DNA from: Terriglobia bacterium
GTDB taxonomy: Bacteria > Acidobacteriota > Terriglobia > Terriglobales > Acidobacteriaceae
Assembly (NCBI GenBank): GCA_020072845.1
Contig: JAIQGF010000010.1
Coordinates: 1 to 64,000, forward strand
DNA length: 64,000 nt
Direction of reading: 5' to 3'
Shown here: positions 34,972 through 42,641 of the stretch, piece by piece
Position numbering within the stretch: position 1 is the first letter of the stretch
Layout: each line of letters starts with the position of its first letter
The notes under the pieces: model-generated
What the model saw: the letters and a program-made list of their open reading frames with translations, nothing else
What the model was told of the DNA's origin: nothing
Database searches by the model: none
Made by a program: the position numbers and the translations under genes

Positions 34972-35093
34972 GTCACTTGTACGCTGCGGGCGCTGTGATA
35001 TAAACAGTTTTTCTCCAGCTGTGGAGTAGATAGGAATTTGCGGTGCGTCGCAGGCCGCCACAGGCCCGCGCTGCGCCGGACTTGAGGACTGTC

Positions 35094-35678
35094 TTGAGTT
35101 TCATCAATTTCGCAGCGCGCGAGATCAACTGCAAGATCGTCTACTACGGCGCCGGCCTGGGCGGCAAGACCACCAATCTGCAATACATTTTCGACAAGAC
35201 TTCCGAAAAACAGAAAGGGAAGATGATTTCCCTTGCCACGGAAACCGATCGCACCCTGTTTTTCGACTTCCTGCCGCTGGACCTGGGGACGGTGCGCGGC
35301 TTCAAGACCCGGTTCCACCTCTACACCGTACCGGGGCAGGTGTTCTATGACGCCAGCCGCAAGCTGATCCTGCGCGGAGTGGATGGCGTGGTGTTCGTCG
35401 CCGACTCCCAGGATGAGCGCATGGACGCCAACGTGGAAGCCCTGGAGAACCTGCGCGACAACATGAAGGAGCACGGGTACGACTTCACCAAGATCCCGTA
35501 CGTGCTCCAGTTGAACAAGCGCGACCTGCCCAATGCCTTGCCGGTGGACAGTTTGAAGAAAGAACTGGCAAAACGCTCCGAACCGGTGTTTGAGTCAGTG
35601 GCGGTCCAGGGCGTCGGCGTGTTCGAGACGCTCAAGGACGTCGCGAAGCAGGTGCTGATTGAGTTGAAGAAGGGGTGA
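35094..35678 (+). CDS. mglA: MglA-like small GTPase
   Basis: MglA-type GTPases set cell polarity for gliding and type IV pilus motility. TTG 35094 with GAGGA upstream gives [21 protein letters not shown] and 194 aa, the usual length; a longer reading adds 17 atypical residues. Nucleotide-binding motifs are [11 protein letters not shown] (P-loop), TVPGQVFY (Walker B-type region) and LQLNKRDLP (NKxD). The pilT, pilB and PilZ genes elsewhere in the window make a pilus-polarity role plausible. No adjacent mglB is seen. A strong terminator follows. Confidence 0.93.
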
Positions 35679-35762: not shown

Positions 35763-37214
35763 CTACTGATTCAGGTGGAAGCTCTTCAGCATCTGCTCGA
35801 AGGTGGGGCGCAGGCGGGAGAAGTCATTCTCCGGAGCGACAAAGATCAGCGAGACCCCGGCGCCGTCGTTGCCGGGCAGCGTGACCAGCCAATCGCGCTC
35901 CTGCAGCGGCTGCCCATCGCGACCGGCGAGGGGCGATTGGCCCAGCAGGTCTACCGACCTCCCCAACACGCCGTTGACGCGGATTTTCTGAATATTGCCG
36001 GCCTGGCGCATGCCAGGATTCTGCTGCTGGAGACTGGCGATCAACTGCTGGGTGGCGCCGTCGAAGTCATTGGTGTTCTGCGGCTGGAACGGTGAAACCA
36101 CCGCGCCATGAGAAATTCCGTTTTGTGCAACGCCGGACTGCGGCGCGAAAGTGACTGAGCCGGACTGCTGGCCCTGTAGGGGCTGCCAGTTGCTGGGATA
36201 TTCCAGGGAGAACGGTCCCTGGAAGCGCTCGAAGCCGCCGCTGGGCATGACCTCCGACGACGATCGGTTGCGCGAGCAAGCAGGCGCGGTCTGGTCGTCG
36301 TCAGGGCCGCTGACGTCGTGGATCTGGCCGCTCTGCGCCATCTGATGAATCTGCTGCGCGGAATAGGCGCGAATGCTGCTCGCGTCCTGCTTGGCCTGCG
36401 CGAATTCCGGGCTGCTGTCGTGGTACTGGCGCGCCGGCCAGTTCCTGATTTCGTCCTGCACGGCCTGGACGCGGTTGCCGGGATCGGGGTGGTCGCTGAG
36501 GAACTGCGGCCCGCCACTTCTTGCCTTCTGTTCCAGCCTGAGGAAGAATTGCGCCAGCCGGATGGGATTGTAACCGGCTTTGTACATGATGATGGCGCCA
36601 ACCGCGTCGGCCTGGGCTTCATCGGCGCGCGAGTACCTCATGCTGATGACGCCGGCGCCGAGTTGGGCGCCCATATTGGCCAGCGCTCCGGCGGGGCCAC
36701 CGAGCACGGCGCCAAGCACGCCGCCCAGAATCTGTCCTGCCGCCTGCGTTGTGCCCTGCTTGCGCATGCCCTTGATGGAGTGCTGCATATAGACGTGCGA
36801 CATCTCGTGGGCGATTACGCCCGCAAGTTCGGCTTCGTTTTCGGCGGCCAGGATGGTGCCGACATTGACGAACACGGGTCCGCCGGGCAGGGCGAAGGCA
36901 TTGATCTCTTTTTGCTGCACGACATGGAACTGATACGGCCAGTTGTATTGCTGCGGAATGACGGAGTCGAGCCTCTGGCCGAGCGACTGGACGTAGCGGC
37001 TGAGCGGGCTGTTGTCCGGCAGGATCGGCATCTGCCTGGCAACCTCGGCGAGGGCTCGCTGGCCGAGTTGGATTTGCTGATCCCTGGGGGCTGCCAGGCC
37101 GGGATCGGGCAGGACAGGGTCGTTGCCCACTCCCGCCAGCATCCACGCCGGACAGGCGATCAGGAAAACGAGCAGGACCGCGACAGCACGGGTGCAGCCC
37201 GAGGTATGTCTCAC
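35763..37214 (-). CDS. M48 metalloprotease, BepA-like, exported
   Basis: The protein has 483 aa from GTG 37214 (GAGGAG just upstream). A signal peptide (AVAVLLVFLIACPAWMLA) is followed by the M48 domain with zinc motif VIAHEMSHVYMQHSIKG and the third-ligand region SMRYSRADEAQADAVGAIIMYKAGY. After about residue 280 a separate C-terminal domain (LEYPSNWQPLQGQQSGSV onward) follows. In E. coli, BepA has TPRs there, which I do not see. It is likely a periplasmic quality-control protease. It is divergent from the enolase fusion gene across 37215-37533. Confidence 0.9.
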   Translation of the reverse strand: MRHTSGCTRAVAVLLVFLIACPAWMLAGVGNDPVLPDPGLAAPRDQQIQLGQRALAEVARQMPILPDNSPLSRYVQSLGQRLDSVIPQQYNWPYQFHVVQQKEINAFALPGGPVFVNVGTILAAENEAELAGVIAHEMSHVYMQHSIKGMRKQGTTQAAGQILGGVLGAVLGGPAGALANMGAQLGAGVISMRYSRADEAQADAVGAIIMYKAGYNPIRLAQFFLRLEQKARSGGPQFLSDHPDPGNRVQAVQDEIRNWPARQYHDSSPEFAQAKQDASSIRAYSAQQIHQMAQSGQIHDVSGPDDDQTAPACSRNRSSSEVMPSGGFERFQGPFSLEYPSNWQPLQGQQSGSVTFAPQSGVAQNGISHGAVVSPFQPQNTNDFDGATQQLIASLQQQNPGMRQAGNIQKIRVNGVLGRSVDLLGQSPLAGRDGQPLQERDWLVTLPGNDGAGVSLIFVAPENDFSRLRPTFEQMLKSFHLNQ

Positions 37215-37406
37215 AAGCTCCTCACAGCCGGCAGCCCGGCGCCGCCGGCGGACAAAACATTCCCTAGAGTAACTAAACAATTTAGATGCCAAGTAGTTGC
37301 GCGCGTTTGCAAAAAGCGCGCGGCCGGCGGGTGGCCCGTTTAGGGGCTCGGGGGCTCGTCATTCGAACGGTGATTTGCGTCACAAATGAATTCCGGCGAA
37401 GGGGGC

Positions 37407-37533: not shown

Positions 37534-39978
37534 ATGGACTTGTTGAAAACTGTGCTGCGCAGAATCCTTCCCCAACCGCGAGAAATACCCCGGCTGGACC
37601 GCGGGTGGATCATCGCCAACCACAAGCTGGTTTCGTTTCACGCGGCCTTCCTGACATCGCTGCTCAGCATTTCGACCAGCGTGGCGTCGCGCTTCGATGT
37701 GGTGCGCCAGATGTTCCTGAGCGCGGAAGTGCTGATCTCGGCCGCGATCTGGTACGCGGCATGGCATACCAACATCGCCATCCACGAGATCGGGCACTAC
37801 CTGGCGGCGGTGAGAACGAACAATCTCCGGCCGGAGCTGGCGGGTCCGGCGCAGGAAAAGTTGAGTCAGGGCGGGTTGGGGCGCTGGATGTGGTACCTGG
37901 GGATGTTCGCGAAGATCCCGTATGGAACGTTTCAAGGCGTGCATAAGGAGGCCGGGAGCTTCCATCCCAGCGTCAAGACGCAGAACCTGGCAGTGTCGGC
38001 GGCTGGACCGCGGGCCAGCATGGTGCTGAGCCAGTGGACGCTGCCCCCGGGATTCATTCTGGTCGCGCTCGGACTGTGGGTTGGCGGCTCCTTGGGCGGA
38101 TACGCGGTGTACGCGGGCCGGCTGTTGTTCACCGTCGGCGCGGTGGCGACGTTCGATTTCCTGCTCTCTGACCCAGGCAAATACAAAGCGTTCCGCGCAC
38201 GCGAGCGCGAGGCGGCGGCGCGCGCGGCGGAGGTCAAAGCGGCGGAACCGGCCGCCATGGAAGGGCGTTCGGGCAAGCCGTCGGAGTTGCGGCGCAAGCT
38301 GCGGTTGCACCGGCTGCAGGAAGTCGAGTTGGCCGACGGAACCATCGTATTCGCACCGTGGGAGTTCAGAAACTCGATCATGGGCGGGCGGCACACGGAA
38401 GAAATGGGCGGCAACCTCAGCTTCCAGGAATTCATGTTCCTGCCGCTGACGGCGCGCGACTACATCGAGGCGCAGCGCGTCACCAACATGCTGCAGAGCC
38501 GCGCCATCCAGATCATCCAGGACTCGGAAGGGCTGAATTTCGTGGGCATCGGGCTGGAGGGCGGTATCGTCGCCTCCTACGCCAAGCAGGCGGGCGACAT
38601 CCTGCCGGAGGAGCGGGCGCTGCGGGTGGCGGTGCAGGCGATCGAGGAGTGCGGCTTCGTGCCCGATCGCGATGTTGTGCTGGCGATCGATCCGGCGGCC
38701 AGTGAGCTGAGCAATGCCTACCGGGAGAAGACCGGGGAGAAAGATTCCGTCGGCCAGTACCTGTTCTGGCGGGCGGAAGATCCCAGGGTGATGACCACCG
38801 ACGAACTGGTGGAGTTGTACATCGCCTGGGTGAAGAAGTATCCGATCGTGTCGCTGGAAGACGCCTTCGCCGAGGACGATTACGAGGGCTGGAAGAAACT
38901 GATGAAGGCGCTGGACGCGGAGATCCTGATCATTGGCGACGACCTGGTCACCACCAAGGATTCCACCATCCGCCGCTGCGCCGAAGAGGGGCTGATCAAC
39001 ACGGCGCTCATCAAAGCAAACCAGATCGGTACTATGAGCGAAACCCTGCTGGCCACGCGCGTGGCGAAGGAGTTGGGACTGGCGTTGGTGGTCTCGCACC
39101 GGTCCAAGTCGCCCAACGAGGTGATGGAAGCCGACATCGCCTTCGCGGTGGGCGCGCTCGGGCTGAAGTGCGGCGGCGGCGCCAACACGGAAAGGCTGGT
39201 GAAGTACGGCAGGATCGTGGAACTGATGGAAATGGCGAAGAAGGGCGTGAAGGCCACGCGCAAGCTCGATCCCGATTCCAGGATCGCCGATATTGCGGCG
39301 CACGAAGAACCCACCAACGCCGGCATCCCGACCGTCGGCGTCACCATCATGCTGGACAACGGCATGAAATTCACCGCCGCGGTGCCGCTGGGGACTTCGG
39401 CGGGAACCGACGAAGCCATCCACCTGGTGGACAGCATTATCGAGGCCAACCCGCTGACGCGGAAGTACTCGAATTATTTCGTGTACAACGAAAAAGAGAA
39501 GACGTACAGGTTTGCCCCCAACGTCAAGGCGGAGGCGGTGGCCAAGGAGAATGCCGAACTGGCCGAGCTGTGGATGCGGTCGAAGCGTTACGGCGGCAAG
39601 GGCTGCCTGAATGCGGTGGCGAATGTCATTGAAGTGGTCGCGCCGCGTTTTCTCGGGCAGAAAATTTCCGCGATAGGTTCGCTGGGTGATATTGACCGCG
39701 AGCTGCTGCTGATGGAATTGGACCTGGCGGTGAAGCGCGGGAAGATCGCCGCCGACGCTCCCGCCGAGGAGAAGATCCAGATCATGCAGCGCAAGGCCAA
39801 CCTCGGGATGAACGCGGTGCTGTCGCTGTCGCTGGCGCTGGGCCGGCTGGTGGCGGCGCGCGACGGCATGGAACTGCCCGAGGTGCTGCGCGGCATGGAG
39901 ATGACGATTGATCGCGACTATCTGTACGGGGTCAAGCAAGCGGCGGCAGCGACCGTGCCGAACGGAGTGCGCGTCTAA
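37534..39978 (+). CDS. Fusion: M50-like membrane metalloprotease plus circularly permuted enolase
   Basis: One open frame of 814 aa runs from ATG 37534. Residues 1-230 form a membrane domain with several helices. It has HEIGHY (His84, Glu85, His88) inside a helix, AAGP at 156-159, and Asp208/Asp213 in FDFLLSDPG, as in site-2-type (M50) proteases. Residues about 280-570 are the enolase catalytic barrel; 585-814 are the enolase capping domain, normally N-terminal, so the order is permuted. Enolase residues (yeast numbers) are kept: H159=His287, E168=Glu299, E211=Glu342, D246=Asp386, E295=Glu442, D320=Asp469. Also K345=Lys494, HRS=522-524, K396=Lys545, S39=Ser622. Enolase interconverts 2-phosphoglycerate and PEP. 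Activity and protease role are inferred. It overlaps the opposing PPDK-like gene by 4 bp. Confidence 0.9.
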   Translation: MDLLKTVLRRILPQPREIPRLDRGWIIANHKLVSFHAAFLTSLLSISTSVASRFDVVRQMFLSAEVLISAAIWYAAWHTNIAIHEIGHYLAAVRTNNLRPELAGPAQEKLSQGGLGRWMWYLGMFAKIPYGTFQGVHKEAGSFHPSVKTQNLAVSAAGPRASMVLSQWTLPPGFILVALGLWVGGSLGGYAVYAGRLLFTVGAVATFDFLLSDPGKYKAFRAREREAAARAAEVKAAEPAAMEGRSGKPSELRRKLRLHRLQEVELADGTIVFAPWEFRNSIMGGRHTEEMGGNLSFQEFMFLPLTARDYIEAQRVTNMLQSRAIQIIQDSEGLNFVGIGLEGGIVASYAKQAGDILPEERALRVAVQAIEECGFVPDRDVVLAIDPAASELSNAYREKTGEKDSVGQYLFWRAEDPRVMTTDELVELYIAWVKKYPIVSLEDAFAEDDYEGWKKLMKALDAEILIIGDDLVTTKDSTIRRCAEEGLINTALIKANQIGTMSETLLATRVAKELGLALVVSHRSKSPNEVMEADIAFAVGALGLKCGGGANTERLVKYGRIVELMEMAKKGVKATRKLDPDSRIADIAAHEEPTNAGIPTVGVTIMLDNGMKFTAAVPLGTSAGTDEAIHLVDSIIEANPLTRKYSNYFVYNEKEKTYRFAPNVKAEAVAKENAELAELWMRSKRYGGKGCLNAVANVIEVVAPRFLGQKISAIGSLGDIDRELLLMELDLAVKRGKIAADAPAEEKIQIMQRKANLGMNAVLSLSLALGRLVAARDGMELPEVLRGMEMTIDRDYLYGVKQAAAATVPNGVRV

Positions 39979-42641
39979 ACGTCATCGGGCGCAGGCAGCG
40001 GCAGGCCCTCGGCCTGGCAGATTTTCTTGAGTTCGCCCACCGACCATTCGGCGTGGAAATCGTAGAATGCATGATACGGCTGGTGAAGCAACTCCAGCAC
40101 GCGCGCCGCTTGCGGGTCGCACCACTTGGGCAGTGCCGCGCAGGCTTCGTCCAGGCGTGCGCCGCTGAGTTTCAGCGTAATCAGGGAATGCACTAAGCCG
40201 GGATGGAGCGAAAGCTGGTCGAGCCCCTCTTTTAAGATTTGCTTGCGCGCGCGCAGAACTTTTCTCTCGCCCACCGTGTGGAGAAGGTGCAGGTATTTTT
40301 CAAACAGCACCCACTCGTTCACCAGCAGCGCGACTTCCAGCGGAGTAAAGCACTTCCAGAAGCCGACCGGATAACGCAGGGCGAGAAAGCGCCCGAGCAT
40401 GAAGGCGCCGGCTTCGTAGCCGGAAATGCGATCGCGAAAGCATTTGGCCAGAGCCGCCTTGAAGAAGCGCACCTTGCGGTCGAGGGTCAGCATTTCGAAG
40501 ACGTTGTTCTGCCCGAGATGGTCGCCGATGTCGCTCTTGAGCACTTCTTCCATGTAGACGGTTTCGCGCTCGTCGAACCAGCCGTTGACGAGCTGGCGGG
40601 CCTCGTCGGACTCGCTGCGAAGTTCAAAATTCACCAACCGCATGACCTCGCTGAGGCTGGAGATTTTGTCCACGGTGAGGCCGCGGACCAGTTGCTGGTA
40701 ATAGCGATAGGCATAGGCAACGGTGGCGAATTCCTTGTCTTCCTCGCTTCCCTCCTCGGCGATGCGCTCGCCTTTCATGTAGCGCAGCAGCCGGGCCGGA
40801 GTGAACTTCGCCTTGCCCAGATACACGGCGTTACGACGGGAGGAAATCGTGATCCAGTCGCCTTCGCGAATCTCGCTGCCGGAGGAATTCCGCAGGCGGC
40901 CGTCGGGGTGCAGCGTGACGCCGTACTTCTCCAGGTTGAGGAGGGCGGGAATACCGAGGCTCTGGCAGATGGTGACGACGTGCACCGCGGCGGAGGTCAG
41001 GCTGAGGACGGCGTCCACTTCACCCATGACCACCGTGTCGGTGGGGACAAATGTTTTCTTGCAAAGACAGACCTTCTCGTCCTGGGTCTTGGCGCGCAAG
41101 GCGGCGTCGCCGGTGAAATAGACGCGGGCCGAAACCGCAGACCGAGGCAGCACCGCTACCCCGGGCGAGAATGTGCTGAGCGTGCTGAAGTTGTCCTGGT
41201 CAATGGTGTCGCTGGTGAGCTGCTTGAGGTGGTAGGGACGAATCAGCTCGGTGACGCGCTTGCGCGAGATGGCGCCCGACTTATGCATGTCAACCACGGC
41301 GATGAGCGCCGCCCGTCCGGCCAATCCGGTTTCGTTCAGTTGCAGTAGTGCGAACCACTGGTAGCGGCTGGTGGCTTCCACCGCGAATTCGATGGTGACC
41401 GGCGACTCGAATTCACGCTCCAGCTCAGGGAGGTGGGGCAGGAAGTGGTACACGGCCGGGAAGGTGTCCTTCACCGCCTGGTCATTTTCGAACTTCGTGG
41501 TTTTGAATTCCGCCGTGCCGGTCATCATCTCTTCGCCAAAGATATTGCGCGCCGTTTGCAGCTCCCTTCCCACGCCCGAGCGGGTATCGCGGCTGGATAA
41601 GACACCGGCGCAGGCGGTCTCGTGGCGCACGGTGCAGACCATCTTCTGCAGGATGAGGCTGGGGGCAAGGTCACTGCCGCGGCAGAGCGCAGCCACCAAG
41701 TCGTGGTTCTCTTCAAAATGCTTGTAGGCCTGCCGGGCGAAGAAGAGCGCTTGATACGCGGGGTCCTCGATGAGACTGCGGTCGGTATGCCGGATGACTT
41801 CCAACATCTGGGCAATGAGCCGCACGACCTGTTCGGGTGGCAGGGTCGGAGTGACGGCATGGACCAGTTCTGTGCCTTGTTCGAGAGCGTCGCATAGGTT
41901 CCGCAAGGTGTTCAGGAACATCCGGTGCGCGCCGACGGAGCCGTACATGATTTCCAGGCTGGGCAAGGCGCGCTCGGTGATCCCGACGTTGAGGTAAGTG
42001 TCCATCACGCCTGGGATGTAGCGCGGCGTAGCGCAGCGCAGGGCGAATACCAGAGGTTTGCCGGCGCGCAGCGACTGCATGGTCAGAACTTCCAGTTGGC
42101 CGATGGCGTCGCCCAGGTGACGCTCGAGGTTGGCGGCGTCAGCGTAAGCGTCGGCCGTCAGCACGACGAAATCGGGTACGGGATAGCCCTGTTGCGTGAG
42201 TTTGAGGAGGATGAATCCTTTTTGGCTGATGTCGCGCGCCGAGTGCGCCTCGAACGAGCTGGTACAAGGAACGACGAACCGGGTTTCAGCCGGCGCCGGC
42301 TGCTCCGCCGACATGGTCAGCCAGGGATATTGCCCGAACGCGGCCGTGAGGTCAGCGGCCGCCTGCGCAAAGCCTCGGCGTGCATTGATGATGCGGGCAA
42401 GGTGGGCCCGTCCCTGTTCAAAATCGCCTTGGCAAAGCAACGGAATGTCGACCTCCATGGCCACCACGCTGCTGCTTGCGCCATCGGCAAGATCGAACTC
42501 GACCACCGGCGGGCAGTATCCGGGACGATCGGATACCCTGGTCGTAGAGCTCTGCTCCTTACGAAAGCGCCGGCTGTGCTGGTTGAAGTAGTTGCCGCGC
42601 ACCCGGAAGTCGCGAATTTCGCTGGCTGGCAGCGGTTCCAT
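39975..42641 (-). CDS. PPDK-like ATP-grasp/phosphohistidine protein without PEP barrel
   Basis: The 888-aa protein resembles the first two-thirds of pyruvate phosphate dikinase. ATP-grasp features include QKGFILLKLTQQGYPVPDF (Lys141), LVFALRCATPRYIPGVMDTYLNVG (Arg202) and GVLSSRDTRSGVG. YHFLPHLPELEREF and VTIEFAVEATSRYQWFALLQLNE follow. The phosphohistidine domain spans about 490-610; VHVVTICQSLGIPAL aligns without gaps to the PPDK SHAAVVARGMG region and places His554 at the catalytic position. The C-terminal 280 residues are helical and show none of the PEP/pyruvate-barrel motifs. The first 125 residues are also extra. It may be a phosphotransfer or PEP-sensing enzyme. It faces the enolase fusion tail to tail. 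Confidence 0.82.
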   Translation of the reverse strand: MEPLPASEIRDFRVRGNYFNQHSRRFRKEQSSTTRVSDRPGYCPPVVEFDLADGASSSVVAMEVDIPLLCQGDFEQGRAHLARIINARRGFAQAAADLTAAFGQYPWLTMSAEQPAPAETRFVVPCTSSFEAHSARDISQKGFILLKLTQQGYPVPDFVVLTADAYADAANLERHLGDAIGQLEVLTMQSLRAGKPLVFALRCATPRYIPGVMDTYLNVGITERALPSLEIMYGSVGAHRMFLNTLRNLCDALEQGTELVHAVTPTLPPEQVVRLIAQMLEVIRHTDRSLIEDPAYQALFFARQAYKHFEENHDLVAALCRGSDLAPSLILQKMVCTVRHETACAGVLSSRDTRSGVGRELQTARNIFGEEMMTGTAEFKTTKFENDQAVKDTFPAVYHFLPHLPELEREFESPVTIEFAVEATSRYQWFALLQLNETGLAGRAALIAVVDMHKSGAISRKRVTELIRPYHLKQLTSDTIDQDNFSTLSTFSPGVAVLPRSAVSARVYFTGDAALRAKTQDEKVCLCKKTFVPTDTVVMGEVDAVLSLTSAAVHVVTICQSLGIPALLNLEKYGVTLHPDGRLRNSSGSEIREGDWITISSRRNAVYLGKAKFTPARLLRYMKGERIAEEGSEEDKEFATVAYAYRYYQQLVRGLTVDKISSLSEVMRLVNFELRSESDEARQLVNGWFDERETVYMEEVLKSDIGDHLGQNNVFEMLTLDRKVRFFKAALAKCFRDRISGYEAGAFMLGRFLALRYPVGFWKCFTPLEVALLVNEWVLFEKYLHLLHTVGERKVLRARKQILKEGLDQLSLHPGLVHSLITLKLSGARLDEACAALPKWCDPQAARVLELLHQPYHAFYDFHAEWSVGELKKICQAEGLPLPAPDDV

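Follow-up and report, generated by a model that had tools for sequence, protein, structure and literature searches.

Enolase is among the most conserved enzymes, and in its ordinary form (TIGR01060; PF00113 and PF03952) the capping domain precedes the catalytic barrel. PPDK (TIGR01828; PDB 1dik and 1kbl) is built of three parts: an ATP-grasp domain, a phospho-histidine swivel domain and a PEP/pyruvate barrel. Membrane proteases of the Peptidase M50/site-2 family have an HExxH motif and a conserved aspartate in a hydrophobic domain, and those of the SpoIVFB type have a soluble domain behind it; in SpoIVFB (PMC9042235) this C-terminal cytosolic domain is of the CBS type and contacts the substrate.

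The locus described here brings modules of all three families together. It lies in the window, by which we mean the whole 64,000-nucleotide stretch of contig JAIQGF010000010.1 (Terriglobia bacterium) that was analysed, and consists of a gene coding for an M50-like membrane domain fused to an enolase in swapped domain order and of a convergent gene for a PPDK-like protein (Table 1). The carriers of the fusion are some soil and groundwater bacteria. No description of a permuted enolase, of an enolase fused to an M50/site-2 protease or to PPDK, or of a membrane-bound enolase/PPDK device in Acidobacteria was found in the open-access literature, outside which subscription journals mostly lie; papers that came up for enolase together with circular permutation mention the two only separately. 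This agrees with the sequence-only reading of the locus, to which no permuted enolase and no fusion of enolase with a protease was known. Each module alone comes from a known family, but no system joining these three is known to us or was found there.

Table 1. Features of the fusion gene and of its convergent partner (positions in the window; aa, residues of the respective protein)
Feature	Position	Strand	Remarks
Fusion gene, 814 aa	37534..39978, including stop	+	Single uninterrupted frame
M50-like membrane metalloprotease domain, aa 21-230	37594..38223	+	HEIGH, AAGP and DFLLSD motifs; alignments
HEIGH motif, aa 84-88 (H84, E85, H88)	37783..37797	+	
Asp213, probable third zinc ligand	38170..38172	+	Role deduced from the M50 family
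Enolase catalytic barrel, aa 275-566	38356..39231	+	Pfam Enolase_C
Enolase capping domain, normally N-terminal, aa 584-800	39283..39933	+	Pfam Enolase_N; holds loop Ser622
Partner gene, 888 aa, PPDK-like without PEP/pyruvate barrel	39975..42641	-	Convergent; 4-base overlap with fusion gene
Partner ATP-grasp domain, PPDK type, about aa 137-440	41322..42233	-	PPDK profile match
Partner swivel domain, about aa 505-612	40806..41129	-	His554 (40980-40982) lines up with the swivel His of PPDK
Partner C-terminal helical region, aa 620-888	39978..40784	-	At the position of PPDK's PEP/pyruvate barrel

From its ATG at 37534 to the stop codon at 39976-39978, the fusion gene reads without interruption, as the sequence-only reading had stated. 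Pfam places Enolase_C at residues 275-566 (E 8e-56, 189.9 bits against a cut-off of 21.5) and, behind this barrel, Enolase_N at residues 584-740 (E 1.7e-15, 57.8 bits against a cut-off of 35). A phmmer search of the PDB gave only enolases among the matches listed (60 of 67), and in two of the alignments the barrel corresponds to chain residues 143-411 and the pieces of the cap to chain residues 3-125; the domain order is therefore swapped, as had been proposed, and the cap-before-barrel order of ordinary enolase is absent and reversed in this protein. The metal ligands and catalytic residues named earlier are likewise present and aligned. By alignment, the permuted enolase keeps the full 2-phosphoglycerate/PEP active site, with residues that we take, from the enolase literature, to bind phosphate, carboxylate and metal or to carry out the chemistry, and this part would probably turn over as an enolase.

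The permuted protein differs from ordinary enolase in more than the order of its domains and the membrane domain in front. Both enolase domains exceed their Pfam cut-offs, but the score against the eno equivalog TIGR01060 is 241 bits, below the cut-off of 300. Compared with the normal enolase of the same genome, identity is 35% over the barrel (275-566) and 35% over the start of the cap (582-633), 151 of 414 aligned columns are identical after reordering, and the cap is longer by an insert of some 50 residues (634-683). Close to the active site, GDEGG is changed to GLEGG, HRSGE to HRSKS and DSRGNP to TNAGIP. An AlphaFold model of the fusion computed with 21 relatives had a mean pLDDT of 50.3 and a pTM of 0.31 and was unusable for fold comparison.

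The membrane domain had been assigned to the M50 family from its motifs, and the HExxH motif and the distal aspartate that mark this family are indeed present, although the Pfam score of the window protein itself (Peptidase_M50 at residues 81-171, E 0.0024, 17.7 bits) is under the gathering cut-off of 27.2. The same Pfam model matches nine of the 14 members of alignment A4 at E<=0.1 (best 1.3e-6), and a profile of these 14 members had no match among solved structures at E<=1. Hydropathy peaks within residues 32-72 and 161-212, and the domain is helical in a poor model (mean pLDDT 50). Asp208 (38155-38157) is conserved to the same degree as Asp213, and we presume for H84, E85, H88, D208 and D213 the roles that such residues have in the M50 family. 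Lys and Arg abound in the linker that follows the final hydrophobic stretch; according to the positive-inside rule, the Lys/Arg-rich flank of a hydrophobic stretch faces the cytosol, which would place the enolase part there. Compared with M50 proteases of the SpoIVFB type, the profile match is weak and the soluble part is an enolase instead of a CBS domain.

A scan with the M50 part over one genome per species (84,980 species), which reaches close relatives only, returned 19 loci, 15 in records titled Terriglobia or Acidobacteria, two in Deltaproteobacteria and two in Elusimicrobia. Five stretches from relatives bring the total to 24 loci; as L033 and L039 share a contig, the distinct contigs number 23. 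In 23 of the 24 loci (22 of 23 other genomes) all three domains stand complete and in frame, in the order M50, barrel, cap; in the remaining one, L049, the contig end cuts the frame inside the barrel. L087 (genome G310) is a further complete fusion. Of the 61 genomes compared around the window, a number that includes the window's own, six have the full-length form, at 77-100% identity. The same order thus recurs in other Acidobacteriota, where the earlier reading had suggested looking for it.

An assembly join or frameshift, the flaw that this reading had itself considered, or a decaying pseudogene is next to impossible as an explanation of the fusion. There is little on its side, namely a locus, L057, short of about 50 cap residues and a degenerate paralogue, L086; against it, frame and order are repeated in 22 other genomes and in L087, which to judge from the titles of their records stem from several sampling projects, and omega is well below 1. 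The shared order and omega already refute it. In L057 (7968-10259, + strand) the gap in the cap corresponds to window residues 693-741 and the frame is kept.

A profile of the M50 part matched 11 of 396 Acidobacteriota genomes: four of type A (that of the window), four of type B, two of type C, and a last match that is a short fragment interrupted by stops. Of 235 genomes in the phylum to which the records titled Deltaproteobacteria belong, five matched: four are of type B and the fifth is the centre genome. In the phylum of the Elusimicrobia records two of 198 matched, both already known. Types B and C share 37-47% identity with the window protein in the M50 part, 48-59% in the barrel and 45-50% in the cap. 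Across these subfamilies we tracked five protease residues (H84, E85, H88, D208, D213) and 12 enolase residues (H287, E299, E342, D386, E442, D469, K494, H522, R523, S524, K545, S622), and every one of the 17 is invariant over all 23 rows compared (12 A, eight B, two C and the window itself) at region identities of 37-98%. Alignment A1 left out L033 (on the contig of L039), L049 (cut) and L040 (complete, and nearly the same as L042).

One further row, L086, is a paralogue in a C-type genome (G146:C59, 2-2959, - strand). It keeps H84, H88, D208 and D213 but has Met at E85 (HMMGH), and at none of the 12 enolase positions is an identical residue aligned, with an uncertain alignment in the HRS region where one or two may be kept. 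The two active sites are thus kept together, and in this one case the protease glutamate and the enolase residues are lost together, which argues that both are used. The genome of L086 also has an intact copy, L085, and the L086 frame goes on beyond the cap to another N-terminal segment of M50-like type, the second in this frame, which is cut at the contig end.

The fusion is under strong purifying selection. Against seven relatives, omega is 0.022-0.066 for the barrel and 0.058-0.114 for the cap, and in the six computable comparisons 0.095-0.171 for the M50 part, with dS saturated in the distant pairs.

The fusion is an extra copy beside a normal eno. The separate normal gene that the sequence-only reading had proposed to search for was found elsewhere in the window's own genome, and a normal enolase is present in 22 of the 24 genomes examined: this one, all five other fusion-bearing relatives and 16 of 18 further genomes. 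In the other two, G455 and G458, whose completeness is not given, no second enolase match exceeded the cut-off. In most of the genomes examined, therefore, the housekeeping function is covered. In G461, the genome of L055, four Enolase_C matches correspond to the fusion and three frames of normal length.

Over shared columns in 12 genomes (two of the 12 normal enolases being untrimmed to the barrel), mean identity is 86.6% among the permuted barrels and 68.5% among the normal enolases, the permuted barrels being the more alike in 65 of 66 pairs; strong constraint, a transfer between phyla or the two combined would be compatible with this likeness. In the enolase tree, a branch with 100/100 support parts 36 normal enolases from all permuted ones. 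As the bootstrap is unsettled, the branches very long and a distant outgroup absent, a single origin of the permutation is no more than likely.

Downstream of the fusion gene lies the convergent partner. Its residues 140-618 match PPDK by profile (E 1.3e-34), comprising the ATP-grasp domain and the swivel with its histidine aligned, a residue that may be phosphorylated. There the PPDK profile alignment stops, and no match to the PEP/pyruvate barrel was found in the partner. The last residues, about 270, are predicted to be mostly helical in a model of fair quality, and this part and an N-terminal part of 136 residues are the partner's own with respect to PPDK. Against the PPDK equivalog TIGR01828 the protein scores 93.3 bits, below the cut-off of 843.45. 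Among the 20 members of alignment A2, Pfam at E<=0.1 finds PPDK_N in 19 and the swivel domain in 13. At the ATP site of type A, at least 90% of the 20 rows have Asn (Asn436) where PPDK (1dik) has R337, which leaves ATP use in the window's subfamily unsure.

A Foldseek search with the partner model (pLDDT 71.5, swivel below 50) also gave PPDK as the best match (9.9e-17), but the TM score was only about 0.36, for which reason we relied on the sequence profile instead. Rifampin phosphotransferase, an ATP-grasp and swivel-histidine enzyme without a PEP barrel for which we know of no membrane or enolase partner, gave a much weaker match (E 2.2e-6).

The two genes are convergent in all 22 distinct loci that can be judged, to which L087 adds one, and the distance from stop to stop is -43 to 493 bases in 21 of the 22. 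In the exception, L053, the stops are 2,143 bases apart, with other frames between the two genes. A wider operon was rejected: besides the fusion and its partner, no frame cluster reaches five of the 24 loci among the 40 clusters listed from the flanking sequence available; those of four loci are mostly from the window's genus, and two clusters of low identity (24-32%) comprise three and four loci. Anti-phage defence was rejected as well, as none of three proteins matches PADLOC models at E<=0.01.

On the strand opposite to the fusion gene and upstream of it, the window holds a gene for an M48 metalloprotease (35763-37292, - strand), a neighbour common to only four of the 24 loci, in the window's genus, two of them on one contig. 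A small Arf/Ras-like GTPase gene at 35043-35678 (+ strand; Pfam Arf 4e-8) is possibly of the MglA type.

In type B, enolase and the ATP-grasp and swivel module follow each other in one stop-to-stop frame of 2,051-2,397 codons (L080, 2,078; L081, 2,184; L083, 2,051; L100, 2,397); L082 has two neighbouring frames on the same strand, of 957 and 1,184 codons, possibly through a frameshift. In each of the three scanned (L080, L082 in its second frame, and L100), the enolase is followed by Pfam matches to PPDK_N and to the swivel domain. The motifs of the ATP site and of the swivel histidine are readable in all five loci, and the ATP-site arginine is kept in all five of these fused or adjacent forms; L101-L103 leave their contigs before the position of the module. 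An HD domain stands behind the enolase cap in L102 (1-870, - strand; 23.7 bits, over the cut-off of 22) and in L100 (9195-10025, - strand; 19.9 bits, just under it), and in L100, whose chain is complete, it precedes the helical and PPDK part. Homology between the helical part of these giants and the C-terminal helical part of the partner was rejected, hhalign giving no match.

No barrel-less PPDK was found in subfamily C, a count in which the PPDK_N matches of G146 were taken as a whole and not one by one; G127, 83% complete, has one PPDK frame of ordinary length. In L084 (3417-8961) the subfamily C gene is convergent to a normal enolase gene, which adjoins a gene of the phosphoglucomutase/phosphomannomutase family.

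In a tree of PPDK modules that held 11 of the 20 type-A partners and left out 10 of 17 ordinary PPDK_N loci, without a frame by the TSHA filter, the A and B modules each form a 100% clade. They may stem from one inheritance or from two recruitments, and the tree leaves their relation to ordinary PPDK unsettled; the association between the enolase fusion and a PPDK-like module is strong under either descent. The architecture given by the sequence-only reading stands, but its functional proposal had overlooked both the convergent partner and the giant forms, and with these a multi-module device takes the place of PEP formation at the membrane as the likely function.

The reading that we tentatively prefer is that of a metabolically gated membrane protease, a two-protein device in which a working enolase is combined with a phospho-histidine module. 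On its side stand the recurrent swapped order, the joint conservation of both active sites, the purifying selection, the normal enolase found in most genomes examined, and the linkage and fusion with the PPDK-like module. Mechanistically, the 814-residue protein would sit in the cytoplasmic membrane through its M50 (site-2-protease-like) domain and carry the permuted enolase on the cytosolic side, and the partner would supply two of PPDK's three parts, the ATP-grasp domain and the phospho-histidine swivel. As working enzymes, the enolase and the phospho-histidine module would read lower glycolysis, through 2-PG/PEP and, via the histidine, through ATP/AMP/Pi; their conformation would gate the attached intramembrane protease, which in turn would cut a candidate membrane-anchored regulator. 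The probable cytosolic position of the enolase and the contact that the CBS domain of SpoIVFB makes favour this gating, although the precedent is partial; cleavage by SpoIVFB is reportedly ATP-dependent. Counted against it are that no protease substrate was found and that the strictest constraint is on the barrel and not on the protease; a plain enzyme would account for the conserved chemistry no less well than a sensor. The sub-threshold M50 match of the window protein, the lack of a solved structure matching the M50 profile, the Asn at the ATP site in type A, the frames between the two genes in L053 and the absence of a barrel-less PPDK from the matches in subfamily C also speak against it.

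That constraint, the complete active site and the partner's membership in the PPDK family would all suit a membrane-localised enolase, whose M50 part is mainly an anchor or self-maturing and which makes PEP locally for a phosphorylation step with the partner. We nevertheless consider it rather unlikely, as the five protease residues are as invariant as those of the enolase and E85 is lost, in one case, only alongside the latter, whereas a mere anchor would have no need of the protease residues; moreover the partner, having no PEP barrel, is unable to use PEP as a phosphate donor in the manner of PPDK. It is improbable, too, that the protein is an enolase relative acting on another 2-phospho- or 2-hydroxy acid in a pathway shared with the partner: the sub-threshold equivalog score, the changes to GLEGG, HRSKS and TNAGIP and the long branch to normal enolases point that way, but all 12 tracked residues for phosphate, carboxylate and metal binding or catalysis are retained. 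An ATP-driven relay, in which the swivel phospho-histidine docks on the enolase barrel as acceptor in place of PPDK's PEP barrel and 2-PG or PEP is made at the membrane with energy from ATP, has in its favour that subfamilies A and B supply an ATP-grasp domain, a swivel and one barrel, that of the enolase, and that the fused forms hold these parts on one chain. To this relay we give little credence, given that the barrels of enolase and of PPDK come from separate superfamilies, that subfamily A has a changed ATP site and that we know of no enolase that takes a phosphoryl group. It would be a comparably long shot that this is an undescribed class of membrane energy-state device in which the permuted, working enolase barrel replaced the PEP barrel of PPDK, with the ATP-charged phospho-histidine docking on it and 2-PG/PEP or the phosphorylation state switching the protease in the same complex or polypeptide.

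Joined to a membrane protease and tied, through gene linkage and through fusion, to a PPDK-like protein without PEP barrel, this enolase would be a direct physical link from lower glycolysis to the membrane, and it makes testable the idea that enzymes of central metabolism serve as sensors of regulated intramembrane proteolysis. For the enolase family, a natural and conserved circular permutation that appears to leave the active site intact is a natural experiment in enolase folding.
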